Positions 9,838-28,299 of a stretch of 64,000 bases of DNA are shown piece after piece (the stretch's first letter is position 1; every line of letters starts with the position of its first letter). Below the pieces are notes generated by a model. It worked only from the letters and a program-made list of their open reading frames with translations, ran no database searches and was not told the origin of the DNA. Source of the stretch: Yersinia proxima (lineage in GTDB: Bacteria; Pseudomonadota; Gammaproteobacteria; Enterobacterales; Enterobacteriaceae); assembly GCF_902170785.1 (NCBI RefSeq), contig NZ_CABHYG010000014.1:310001-374000 (forward strand), given 5' to 3'. The position numbers and the translations under genes are program-made.

Positions 9838-11256
9838 TTAACCCACTCTTTCAACTTGTTCCTTTACCCCTGCTTTGCCATGTTCCGCGCTGGAAAACCA
9901 ATTCAGTTTTTCACGTAAGCTGACAACACTGCCGACGATAATCAGGCTTGGGCTGCTGACTTGCTGAGAAAGCAGTGCCAGCTGACTCAATTCGCCGCTT
10001 ACTACCCGCTGATGCCGCGAAGTGCCGTTCTCGACCAGAGCAACAGGGGTTGCCGCTGGCATGCCGTGTCGAATCAGTTGCTGCTGAATCTCACCGGCCT
10101 GTGATAGTCCCATATAGAACACCAGCGTTTGTTTTTCTGCTGCCAGATTGGCCCAATCCAACTGACTGTCTTTCTTGGCGTGACCGGTAATCAGCCGCAC
10201 ACTTTGCGCGTGATCGCGGTGAGTCAGCGGAATGCCGCTGTAGGCTGAACAGCCAGATGCTGCGGTAATTCCCGGCACCACAGAGAATGGAATATTGTAG
10301 TCTGCCAGGGTTTCCAGTTCTTCGCCGCCACGGCCAAAAATAAACGGATCGCCACCTTTCAAACGCACTACACGTTTCCCTTGCTGCGCCTGTTGCAGCA
10401 AAATCTGATTGATTTGATCCTGCGGTACGGTGTGGCGACCAGACTCTTTACCGACAAAAATTCGCTCGGCGTCGCGGCGTACTAAATTCATCACTTCATC
10501 GGACACTAGCCGGTCATATACCACCACGTCAGCTTGCTGAATCTGCTGTAAACCTTTCAAAGTCAGCAAACCAGCATCCCCCGGCCCGGCTCCCACTAAT
10601 ACCACTTCGCCGCGATCAGACAGTGGCGCATTGAACAGTTGCTCAACGTGTTGCTCGACTTGTACCTGATCCTCATTAGCCAGTGATTGCGCCAGACGGT
10701 CGTGGGTGAGCAGTTTTTCCCAGAAACGGCGACGGTCAGTCATTGCGGCAAAATGCTGTTTCACCCGCTGACGTAAGTGACCTGCCAACTGTGCCAATTG
10801 GCCCAAATGCTGTGGCAGCATAGCTTCCAGTTTTTCTCGCAGCAATCGCGCTAACACTGGAGCTTTTCCGCCAGAAGAGATAGCTATCATGATAGGAGAG
10901 CGGTCAATGATTGATGGCATAATAAAACTGGTGCGCTTCGGATCATCAACCACATTGCAGAACACCCGCTGTTGGTTGGCGCTTTGATAGACCAACGCAT
11001 TGACGGCCACCTGGTCAGTCGCTGCAATCACCAACCATTTTTCTGCCAACAGTTCCGGTGCGAATTCGCCGCTAACTAATGAAAGTAGTCCTTGCTCCGC
11101 CCAATCGTGAAACTGCTCGGTAAATTCACAGGCATTGACGGTGACGGCAGCACCCGCATCAAGCAATAAGCGGGCTTTACGTTCGGCCACTTCACCACCA
11201 CCGACCAGCAGGCAGGCTTTGTTTTGCAGTTGGCAGAAAATCGGGAAGTAGTCCAT
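9838..11256 (-). CDS. cysG: siroheme synthase (trifunctional CysG)
   Basis: Makes siroheme from uroporphyrinogen III: methylation at C2 and C7, NAD-dependent dehydrogenation, then iron insertion. Length 472 residues. The N-terminal dehydrogenase/ferrochelatase half has a Rossmann motif ([18 protein letters not shown]) and [20 protein letters not shown]. The C-terminal SUMT half begins [20 protein letters not shown] and contains [20 protein letters not shown] two codons earlier (11262) is possible, but the GAAGGA before ATG 11256 fits better. Last gene of nirBDC-cysG; siroheme is the cofactor of NirB, which explains the linkage. Confidence 0.97.
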
Positions 11257-11344
11257 GGGCAATCCTTCAGGTTGAGGCCGCTAGGGGGTAAAACCAGCCC
11301 CTAAGAGCTGGTAAATTCGGGTATCTGACTCTGGCTAAGTCAAT

Positions 11345-11423
11345 TGAAGGGGAATCGTGCCGTTGGGGTCGTAGTCGCGTAAGCGACCGGAGCGCCCCTA
11401 GGTGCGGTAAACCCTTCACTCAC
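11345..11423. repeat. 79-bp imperfect palindromic repeat, copy A
   Basis: Ends TGAAGGG (11345-11351) and CCCTTCA (11412-11418) are complementary, and the centre is a perfect hairpin GTCGC-GTAA-GCGAC (1174-78, 79-82 and 83-87 of the 11300 block, i.e. 11374-11387). Copy B at 26057-26135, in the opposite orientation, matches 68 of 79 positions. Copy A sits between nirC and cysG inside the operon, so it would be in their mRNA, on the strand complementary to the GTAA loop. Possibly a member of the Yersinia palindromic MITE-like families such as YPAL; I cannot confirm the family by eye. Confidence 0.8.
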
Positions 11424-11449
11424 TGGTTTTGTCATTAACCTCGTATAAC

Positions 11450-24641: not shown

Positions 24642-25991
<1,350 letters not shown>

Positions 25992-26056
25992 CTTTGCATT
26001 ACATTATGAAGAGGCTTTTTTTATCTGAGCTTAATGACAATGCTATTTATAGCTCA

Positions 26057-26135
26057 GTGAGTGAAGGGTCGACCGTACCTAGGGGCGCTTCGACGGCTTA
26101 CGCCGTTACGACCCCAACGGCACGTTTCCCCTTCA
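26057..26135. repeat. 79-bp imperfect palindromic repeat, copy B
   Basis: Inverted relative to copy A at 11345-11423 and exactly the same length. The central hairpin here is ACGGC-TTAC-GCCGT on the plus strand (GTAA loop on the minus strand). It lies between convergent argD and yhfK and may act as a transcript end for either. Eleven differences from copy A, six of them in paired central positions. Confidence 0.8.
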
Positions 26136-26178
26136 TTTTACTTCGTCATCAGTCTGAGGCTTTTGGGCCTCTTCATTT

Positions 26179-28299
26179 TTACGCCTTGCTGTGCAAGTTG
26201 CGCCGACGCCAAATACCGTGGTGCGGCTGTTGCTGCCATGCCAGAGATGAAACGGTATGCATTACACTGAGATGTGACAAGATGCGCCGTAAATTACGTT
26301 CCGATTCAGAGATTTGTGTATCAGGATCGATGTCTGGCATTTGCACAAAATCGTTATTCCCCTCACTGTTATCCGATTCCAGCCGTTGCTGGCATTGCTG
26401 AATTGCCATCTCACAAAGCTGTAAATATTCTTCCGCCAATTTAACAGTCAGCTGAATATGGCGTTTATCTGATTCTGGCGGTGATTCTTCCAATGGATAA
26501 GCGCGAGTCAGGATGGTCATCTCATTGATATGCCCAACAATAAGTTCGCTATGGGTGGCCCACAGGCGCATGTCGGCCAAATATTTTGAGTTAAATCCGG
26601 GTTCCTGCATGGCCTGATTCAGTGAGTTCAGGACAGCATTGCTGGCTTTGTTCACCTGAATGCGTTCATAGGAGAGTTGTGCGATATCAGGTTTAGGTTT
26701 CAGTAGGATGCGCAGTATTTTCTGATAATTCTCCAGTGCTTGATGCGCATTTTTACGCAGCAAACCACTTTGCCACTGTGGCCATAACCACAGTGCACTG
26801 GCGAAGGCCAATGCACAGCCGATTAAGGTATCCAGCAATCGAGGGACTAAAAAGTCAGCGCCTTCTCCGGTCAATAATTGCAAAATATACACTGTAGTGA
26901 TGGTTCTAAAAATGACTGACAAGCCATAGTTTTTGCGCTGAACCAGATAGGCTATCAATGTGATGAGCAACATGATGCTCAGTGTCGTCCCTTCTGGCAT
27001 TTGGAAATGCAGCAGGGCCGCTGCGAGTAACAGCCCAATCAGAGTGCCCAAGGCGCGGTGGTGAATCCGAATTTTAGTGGCGTTATAGCCGTTTTGTGTC
27101 ACCAACATGATGGTGAGTAAAATCCAATAAGGCTTAGGTAGATGGATCAGGTTACCAATATAACTGCCTGCTGCCAGCGTCACGCCCATGCGGCCTGCAT
27201 CACGCAATGCACTGGATTTAAATGATAAATAGCCGACAAGCGCTGGCCAGAATGGTTGGGATAGCTGGCTGGACATCAAATCGCGGTCATATTGCGGGCG
27301 CTGATCGCTCAGGATCTGGGTAATGTGGCTGATATGGTAATAGCAGAATTGTGCCACCGGATTATCAGGATGTTGCTGGGCAACCTCTTCCAGTTCGACC
27401 AACGCATCACCGGCACTGAAATGGGTCTTCGCGCGGTGGTGATAGAGAATATTATCGGCGATGGCGCGCATTTGTGTTGAGATAACCTGCACATTGCGCT
27501 CAAGGATAACTTCTATCGAGCTTTGCTCTATCAGCTCTTGCGCCTTTTCTGACTGATTCATCGCCGCAGTGATATGTTCCTGCAAATCGAGCGCCATCTG
27601 AAAGAGTATCAGTAGCCGTTTTTGCTCTTTCTTGGTGGTATTGGGTAGTAGATTAAATTGTTGATAAAGTTGATTAATTTTATCCATAATGCCTTGCTGC
27701 CTATCAAGCAGGGCTGGCATCATTTTTTCCGCTTCCTGACGCTGACCAAGCAAAGAGTAGGCAGCATCGCAATAATCGGCCAACAGATGGTAAAGCTGAC
27801 TCAGTGGCTCACGGATGGGTTGGTCTTTGCATAACCGAAACCATAGCCAGGTAAATACCCCGTACCAGAGAGTCCCCACGGCACACATCAATGGCGCTTG
27901 CCAAATTGGCGCACGGCCTACCATGCTGAGACTGAAAATCGCGGCGATCAATGCTGCCGGGAGCAACCGGCCATTGAGCTGGCTGATGGCACCACTTACC
28001 CCCAATGTTAATGCGAGACCAAGCATCACCACCGGCAATGGGATATCCCACAGCAGTAATTGTTGAGTCAGAAAACTACTGAAGGTAAAGAGTGTCCCGC
28101 CGACAATCAGCCGCCGGAAGAAATGTTGATGGGGAGTATCGAGCGAAGCAATATTACAGCAGGCCGGTATCAGGGAGAACATCAACCCCAGCCGCAATTC
28201 ACCAAGGGCAAACCCCAATGCCGCCGGTAAGCAGAGAACCAGTGTTTGGCGGAGCGCGTAATTAACTTCAGGATGATAAATAAGCCGTTGCCATTTCAT
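26179..28299 (-). CDS. yhfK: YhfK, putative FUSC-family inner-membrane transporter
   Basis: Length 706 residues, close to E. coli YhfK (696). Two blocks of about five membrane helices, at about residues 15-165 and 385-510, are each followed by long cytoplasmic helical regions. This is the layout of the YccS/YhfK and aromatic-acid exporter (FUSC) family. Conserved stretch: LPKPYWILLTIMLVTQNGYNATKIRIHHRALGT. Substrate unknown. Lies downstream of crp on the same strand but separated by a strong terminator. Confidence 0.93.
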   Translation of the reverse strand: MKWQRLIYHPEVNYALRQTLVLCLPAALGFALGELRLGLMFSLIPACCNIASLDTPHQHFFRRLIVGGTLFTFSSFLTQQLLLWDIPLPVVMLGLALTLGVSGAISQLNGRLLPAALIAAIFSLSMVGRAPIWQAPLMCAVGTLWYGVFTWLWFRLCKDQPIREPLSQLYHLLADYCDAAYSLLGQRQEAEKMMPALLDRQQGIMDKINQLYQQFNLLPNTTKKEQKRLLILFQMALDLQEHITAAMNQSEKAQELIEQSSIEVILERNVQVISTQMRAIADNILYHHRAKTHFSAGDALVELEEVAQQHPDNPVAQFCYYHISHITQILSDQRPQYDRDLMSSQLSQPFWPALVGYLSFKSSALRDAGRMGVTLAAGSYIGNLIHLPKPYWILLTIMLVTQNGYNATKIRIHHRALGTLIGLLLAAALLHFQMPEGTTLSIMLLITLIAYLVQRKNYGLSVIFRTITTVYILQLLTGEGADFLVPRLLDTLIGCALAFASALWLWPQWQSGLLRKNAHQALENYQKILRILLKPKPDIAQLSYERIQVNKASNAVLNSLNQAMQEPGFNSKYLADMRLWATHSELIVGHINEMTILTRAYPLEESPPESDKRHIQLTVKLAEEYLQLCEMAIQQCQQRLESDNSEGNNDFVQMPDIDPDTQISESERNLRRILSHLSVMHTVSSLAWQQQPHHGIWRRRNLHSKA

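Follow-up and report, generated by a model that had tools for sequence, protein, structure and literature searches.

The window, by which we mean the whole 64,000-nt stretch of DNA analysed here, contains two copies of a palindromic repeat (copy A and copy B), which lie in two separate intergenic gaps, copy B in inverted orientation. The neighbouring genes were taken from the list of open reading frames and named by their translations. The extent of copy A was read from an alignment of 40 copies from the same genome together with their flanks, and the same junctions were found in six other genomes. The hairpin beside copy B came from a terminator scan. The features are as follows.

9838..11262, minus strand: cysG-like gene, left of copy A
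11324..11443, plus strand: copy A, whole element
11345..11423, plus strand: core of copy A, inner stem GTCGC/GCGAC, loop GTAA
11450..12256, minus strand: nirC-like transporter gene, right of copy A
24669..25991, plus strand: argD-like aminotransferase gene, left of copy B
26026..26157, minus strand: copy B, whole element of 132 bp, left end at 26157 and right end at 26026
26057..26135, minus strand: core of copy B, inner stem ACGGC/GCCGT, loop GTAA
26156..26171, plus strand: terminator-like hairpin GAGGCTTTTGGGCCTC, the target of copy B, whose left end it adjoins
26179..28299, minus strand: gene for a large membrane protein, convergent, right of copy B

The first-pass annotation had described A and B as two 79-bp palindromes, identical at 68 of 79 positions, in which six of the eleven differences form three paired double substitutions; our recomputation agreed. 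The differences are at core positions 11, 30-32, 41-43, 46, 60, 65 and 66, and positions 30-32 and 41-43 represent three consecutive stem pairs that are substituted in both arms. The GTAA loop and the outer TGAAGGG/CCCTTCA were likewise read in both copies as they had been given. As to extent, the 79-bp repeat is real but is only the core of a longer element, whose modal length is 132 bp.

Copy A has an eroded left end and a short internal deletion in its right part, and its right end is TTTTGTCATTAACCTCG. We looked for a duplicated hairpin in its flanks and found none. Beyond the right end of copy B, at about 26012-26020, there is a partial second copy of the hairpin, GAGGCTTTT. The flanks of copy B share only a 9-base direct repeat, AAAAGCCTC, whose score of 9 equals the highest of the 40 control pairs there.

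Copies, ends and insertion sites of the element

The genome that contains the window (G000; 4,714,895 bases in 23 contigs) carries at least 40 copies of the element, so the likeness of A and B is not due to chance. The alignment revealed conservation outside the core that extends leftwards for about 22 bp (TCAGACTGCTGACAAAGTCAAA) and rightwards for 31 bp, the right part ending in CTTTGTCATTAACCTCA. A total of 161 copies were analysed; 78 were left out of the end scoring as too eroded, and both ends could be recognised in the other 83, of which 55 are 132 bp long. The element was matched in 21 of 25 genomes of the same genus (Yersinia), some of them with a single weak match, and in none of the 16 genomes outside the genus within the set of 41 genomes. 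No match to the element was found in the phages, plasmids and E. coli genomes searched, and Rfam at its gathering threshold gave no match in the 64,000-nt window.

A second repeat of about 167 bp, also present in the window's genome, is bordered by the same two ends (16 of 30 loci fetched through the right end). Local alignment of the 132-bp and 167-bp consensus sequences joins them only at the ends, over 15 bases on the left and the 17 bases of CTTTGTCATTAACCTCA on the right, and nowhere in the interior. An exact 18-mer scan of the genome contigs returned at least 100 stretches; outside Yersinia one row was read, from Serratia sp. AKBS12, and the remaining, unread rows outside the genus are taken to be chance matches. 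The Serratia stretch (L291:1100-1330) holds a related element with a hairpin on each side and one end reading TTGTCAGCAGTCTGA.

Some copies depart from the common form. In four copies of the window's genome (L030, L037, L041 and L044) the left part of the centre differs and is AT-rich, of the CTCTTAGTTTCAAATACAAG type; the core is 95 bp in three of them, and L044 is diverged. In two relatives, the insertion at the L037 locus has the ordinary centre. In another genome (G015, L176) two cores of like orientation lie near each other, and one has diverged strongly.

The insertion sites were compared using one copy per locus, for the 50 of 97 loci that have both ends. Abutting direct repeats with a score of at least 12 were found at 18 of the 50 loci, against 0 of 2000 mismatched flank pairs; the other 32 loci showed no strong flanking repeat. 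A perfect stem of 5 or more pairs lies within 17 of the 18, and what is duplicated is the whole hairpin, 15-24 bp in length. A hairpin adjoins an end in 66 of 83 copies compared with 88 of 664 control positions, where a copy offers two junctions and a control position one. With the longest open frames taken as genes, convergent genes flank 47 of the 97 loci. The duplication of the terminator suggests a safe-landing habit, in which one terminator is left on each side of the insert.

Thirteen sequences of the copy-B terminator were inspected by eye, and seven of them are element-free with an intact hairpin. By eye we also found the 167-bp form in this terminator in three genomes (G012 on the minus strand, G002 and G006 on the plus strand). 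The 132-bp form stands there in the window's genome, and the 132-bp core was matched at this site in 1 of 25 genomes. One and the same terminator was therefore struck several times, in both orientations and by both forms, which argues for a single machinery.

At the copy-A locus the core was matched in 9 of 25 genomes, in seven at the same junction and in the same orientation and in two in the opposite orientation. Relatives of the element in opposite orientation were seen here in G009 and G007 by match (L408 and L425) and in G021 by eye (L423), and G003 has a cut-down relative (L419, by eye). Considering these reversed or cut-down relatives between the same two genes, the gap has probably received several insertions.

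Paired variation of the inner stem

It had been proposed at first pass that the paired substitutions reflect selection on an RNA hairpin or a DNA cruciform, to be checked with further copies and a covariation test. More copies were found, and the paired changes are real: among the 157 of 161 copies with a gap-free inner hairpin, the inner stem is perfectly paired in 142 and imperfect in 15, so that neither a loss of pairing nor a want of further copies appeared. The 142 perfect stems comprise six haplotypes (GTCGC, GTGGC, ACGGC, GCGAC, GCGGC and ATGGC). The copies from relatives were those most similar to copy A in a ranked list; the class counts, and the choice of ortholog loci, therefore favour GTCGC.

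In a set of 151 distinct cores, standard pairing was seen in 144-148 of 150 sequences at every one of the five inner pairs, and double changes are frequent in four of the five. When each locus contributes a single copy, 469 of the 485 inner cells are paired, whereas shuffles that keep relatedness gave a mean of 79% and a maximum of 82.5%; for the outer cells the count is 1508 of 1542 against a shuffle mean of 94.5% and maximum of 95.1%. Single-pair changes connect the haplotypes into a network, in which fully paired forms bridge the three double changes between A and B. One path from A to B through existing paired classes is GTCGC-GTGGC-GCGGC-ACGGC.

The GNRA loop of the first description is present in 141 of 157 copies and is not universal, which rules it out as a strict rule. 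Loops TTAG, TTAT and TTAC, the reverse complements of CTAA, ATAA and GTAA, were observed on GCGGC stems and once on GCAGC (L162, L237, L249, L046, L172, L016 and L042). L016 has the loop TTAT and its ortholog L225 has ATAA; GCA also occurs in the ortholog set of L016.

How the stem came to vary was approached through orthologous insertions, accepted only where both flanks match. We regard it as evenly balanced whether a DNA process replaces the inner hairpin as a unit, either by conversion from other copies of the same genome or by template switching at the hairpin's tip. Since the donor or template would itself be palindromic, pairing would be kept and the double substitutions would need no selection. 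Among 93 same-insertion ortholog pairs, which are dependent on each other, differences occur at 151 of 930 inner-stem sites and at 115 of 2782 sites of the outer paired columns, and 18 pairs have exactly six stem differences, both of which favour a block process. Set against it, the stem is identical in 57 of the 93 pairs, and all 18 pairs with six differences derive from only four loci (11 from copy A, five from L024 and one each from L028 and L036).

The copy-A locus has GTCGC-GTAA-GCGAC in G000, G004 and G017, and GCGAC-GTAA-GTCGC in G002, G012, G022 and G023. G000 and G002 are sisters with 2.2% flank divergence, and their copies show six core differences, all in the stem. In the tree of the copy-A flanks the two states differ within G000/G002 and within G017/G023, each pair with 0.999 support, a split that again favours rewriting as a block; parsimony, counted by hand, requires three changes. 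At the L024 locus the stem state of G012 differs from that of five others.

Three close genomes were compared over the best 40 matches per genome, with which 23 of the 40 G000 copies have an ortholog (30 pairs). Among the matches listed, a paired stem switch is seen at 4 of the 23 G000 loci (L016, L024, L028 and L047; the pair L031/L510, with unlike ends, is omitted from this count) and an uncompensated stem change at one, L025, a proportion that also speaks for the block process. The centre is replaced at L037 (95 bp vs 79 bp), and only the loop changes at L022 and L023.

The block process would further account for the restriction of all perfect stems to six haplotypes and for the TTAT, ATAA and GCA loops of L016 and its orthologs. 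It is weakened by the 15 imperfect copies, by the fact that no conversion tract was followed past the stem, and by the change from GTCGC to GCGAC, which is not a simple hairpin inversion. Whole-hairpin inversion was rejected as the cause of this change by reasoning, because it would keep the stem and flip the loop.

Stepwise compensatory selection on an RNA or single strand is the other reading of the paired changes. The molecule would be read from the TGAAGGGG strand, with a GNRA tetraloop, and would act in transcript 3' ends. We consider this reading rather unlikely. The inner pairing well above the shuffle maximum, the steps of one pair that lead from A to B through existing, fully paired classes, and the frequency of the GNRA loop are in its favour, and the 15 imperfect stems are the residue expected from stepwise change. 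Non-GNRA loops such as TTAG and TTAT within perfectly paired stems do not fit it. Neither does copy A in G000 and G002, where three pairs differ together and the other 69 positions not at all.

On the strand polarity that had been read from the loop, the results point both ways. The plus strand folds better, and is the more stable, in 80 of 97 loci (fold z of copy A, -3.46 plus and -1.90 minus; of copy B, -4.78 and -3.05 on the element's plus and minus strands), and the outer pairs counted by locus include 42 G.T against 19 A.C (binomial 0.004, with cells dependent on each other); both results support selection on RNA. The inner pairs, with 5 G.T against 7 A.C, show no bias, and the tandem gene contexts, 13 sense against 20 antisense, give no clear orientation (longest open frames as genes, one side unassigned at 14 of 97 loci); both count against it. 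PMC2229807 reports expression of YPALs together with upstream genes and a possible effect on RNA stability, which would agree with RNA selection. By analogy, a YPAL-like role in transcript 3' ends is plausible, and an RNA role of the element is possible.

Thus the paired covariation behind the original proposal of selection on an RNA hairpin or cruciform stands, but the block switches of the stem would need no such selection. We read the switches as a block process in a hairpin whose pairing is also maintained; stepwise compensation is possible too, and conversion or template switching explains the stem jumps at least as well as stepwise RNA selection. Going further, we consider it possible, though somewhat less likely than not, that the inner hairpin of this fixed, terminator-associated element is a switchable cassette, the arms of which trade places at one and the same insertion (GTCGC-GTAA-GCGAC against GCGAC-GTAA-GTCGC) repeatedly across lineages in one concerted DNA event each time. 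If this is true, textbook compensatory covariation would arise without stepwise RNA selection, and caution would be needed before covariation within palindromic repeats is taken as evidence of RNA structure. Double substitutions in such repeats can accumulate faster than changes elsewhere in the element, and the block differences of the stem raise the question whether covariation of this kind always means RNA selection.

A candidate transposase

Two kinds of transposase were searched, PF01797 and PF13751/NF033551. Within the genus, PF13751 matched in 3 of 25 genomes and the cut-off of NF033551 was passed in just 2 of 25. One genome of the genus, G012, carries the element as well as an intact IS element (L077), whose transposase of 489 aa matches NF033551 (IS1182) with 505 bits against the cut-off of 270. 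The left end of this IS, TCAGACTGCTGACAAAG, is identical with the left end of our element letter for letter over 17 bp. Its right end is the inverted TCAGACTGCTGACGAAC, and the hairpin GACCGCCTTGGCGGTC stands on both sides. The left end of the element had been derived solely from its own copies, so that the identity with an IS1182 end is independent evidence.

Relatives of this transposase were found in 9 of 295 genomes of the order and 6 of 198 genomes of the family, with the same kind of ends where complete. The ends and flanks were counted on 38 loci (L077, L110-L136 and L430-L439); an earlier inspection of IS ends, including L077 and L133, covered 16 IS loci. The exact left 17-mer is present in 7 of 19 distinct IS elements with complete ends (one in G012, five in G123 and one in G471), and these three genomes belong to three genera. 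A flanking repeat with a score of at least 12, consisting of the hairpin, was found at 13 of the 19, compared with 2 of 342 mismatched flanks, and the other six have no flanking repeat. The right end of the element matches IS1182 ends at 14 of 17 positions at best (L127, L128, L132 and L136), and no identical end was seen. At L133:3018-3050, the duplicated hairpin of an IS1182-type element is followed directly by a second left end, as if a second landing had taken place on the same terminator.

The element and the IS1182 elements share the type of target and the duplication of the whole hairpin. Considering the shared end and this duplication, an IS1182-type transposase is the likely candidate for mobilising the element. 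There is no PF13751 or NF033551 match in the window's genome, so the element would be orphaned there or dependent on a visitor; with the NF033551 cut-off passed in only 2 of 25 genomes of the genus, most hosts may have lost the partner or have another one.

A REP-like element moved by a Y1 (RAYT) transposase, which the palindromic form and the many copies per genome might suggest, is extremely improbable: PF01797 (Y1_Tnp) had no match in the window's genome while the control search was positive in 5 of 14 genomes, E. coli included, and the element has two distinct ends and long hairpin duplications.

We consider it probable that A and B are copies of a non-autonomous YPAL-type mini-transposon with ends for an IS1182 transposase, hairpin-duplicating insertion and an exchangeable interior. 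Counting against this are the looser right end, the missing transposase in the window's genome and its rarity in the genus, the 32 of 50 loci and 6 of 19 IS elements that lack a strong repeat, the flanks of copies A and B, the eroded ends of 78 of 161 copies, and the location of five of the seven exact 17-mers in a single genome. In this mechanism the ends of about 17 bp would be the sites for an IS1182-family transposase acting in trans, which would insert the element at a rho-independent terminator hairpin and duplicate the whole hairpin. The insert would then be flanked by a terminator on both sides, and for this reason we propose that insertion is nearly harmless. The interior between the ends would be exchangeable and hairpin-forming, with the inner stem of the 132-bp form varying among the six paired haplotypes.

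Comparison with known repeats and IS elements

The first-pass annotation had guessed at a Yersinia palindromic family such as YPAL, and the guess fits by the ends, the size class and the target habit. The ends of RU-2/YPAL are given in Table 1b of PMC2759123. Comparison with RU-2, made by eye, and with the 167-bp copies of the window's genome showed both YPAL ends, TTCAGACTGCTGACAAA on the left and CTTTGTCA(A/T)TAACCTCA on the right, in the 132-bp consensus. YPAL/RU-2 is 167-168 bp long, and PMC2267715 lists a second form of 130-136 bp as YPAL*; the 132-bp element fits the size class of 167-168 or about 130 bp. Variable-length duplications at dyad symmetry, the target habit of YPAL, are seen in our element as the duplications of 15-24 bp at 18 of 50 loci.

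The element is thus like YPAL/RU-2 in both ends, in genus and in variable-length target duplications at or beside dyad symmetry, as these are described in PMC2229807, PMC2759123 and PMC2267715, and it differs in that the 132-bp interior does not align to the 167-bp form. Since its ends equal the published ones and a form of its size is listed as YPAL*, we place it by sequence comparison with YPAL, as the form of about 130 bp, on ends, size and targets rather than on the interior. A YPAL-like element is therefore already a known kind; the link to IS1182 and the block switching of the stem go beyond the first annotation.

Kristensenii39 (142 bp) and Aldovae3 (154 bp), de novo Yersinia repeats in Table 3 of PMC2847712, have a similar size and a genus-wide spread, and by these two traits one or the other may be the present element. 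ERIC appears in PMC2267715 as a family listed apart from YPAL.

We found no paper that treats YPAL and IS1182 together, and the literature covered, which does not extend to the founding description of 2006, names no transposase as the mover of YPAL. The common end and the whole-hairpin duplication thus provide YPALs with a named, testable candidate transposase.

The IS1182 elements of Enterobacterales (L077, L110-L134 and L430) resemble our element in the 17-bp left end (7 of 19) and in hairpin duplication (13 of 19), but they are 1.5-1.6 kb long with a transposase gene, and their right end is different. In staphylococci, IS1272 of the IS1182 family targets hairpins, some of them confirmed terminators, according to PMC4923244 and PMC5678879. 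IS1272 is reported to remove the hairpin wholly or partly without duplication, whereas in the Yersinia element the hairpin is duplicated.
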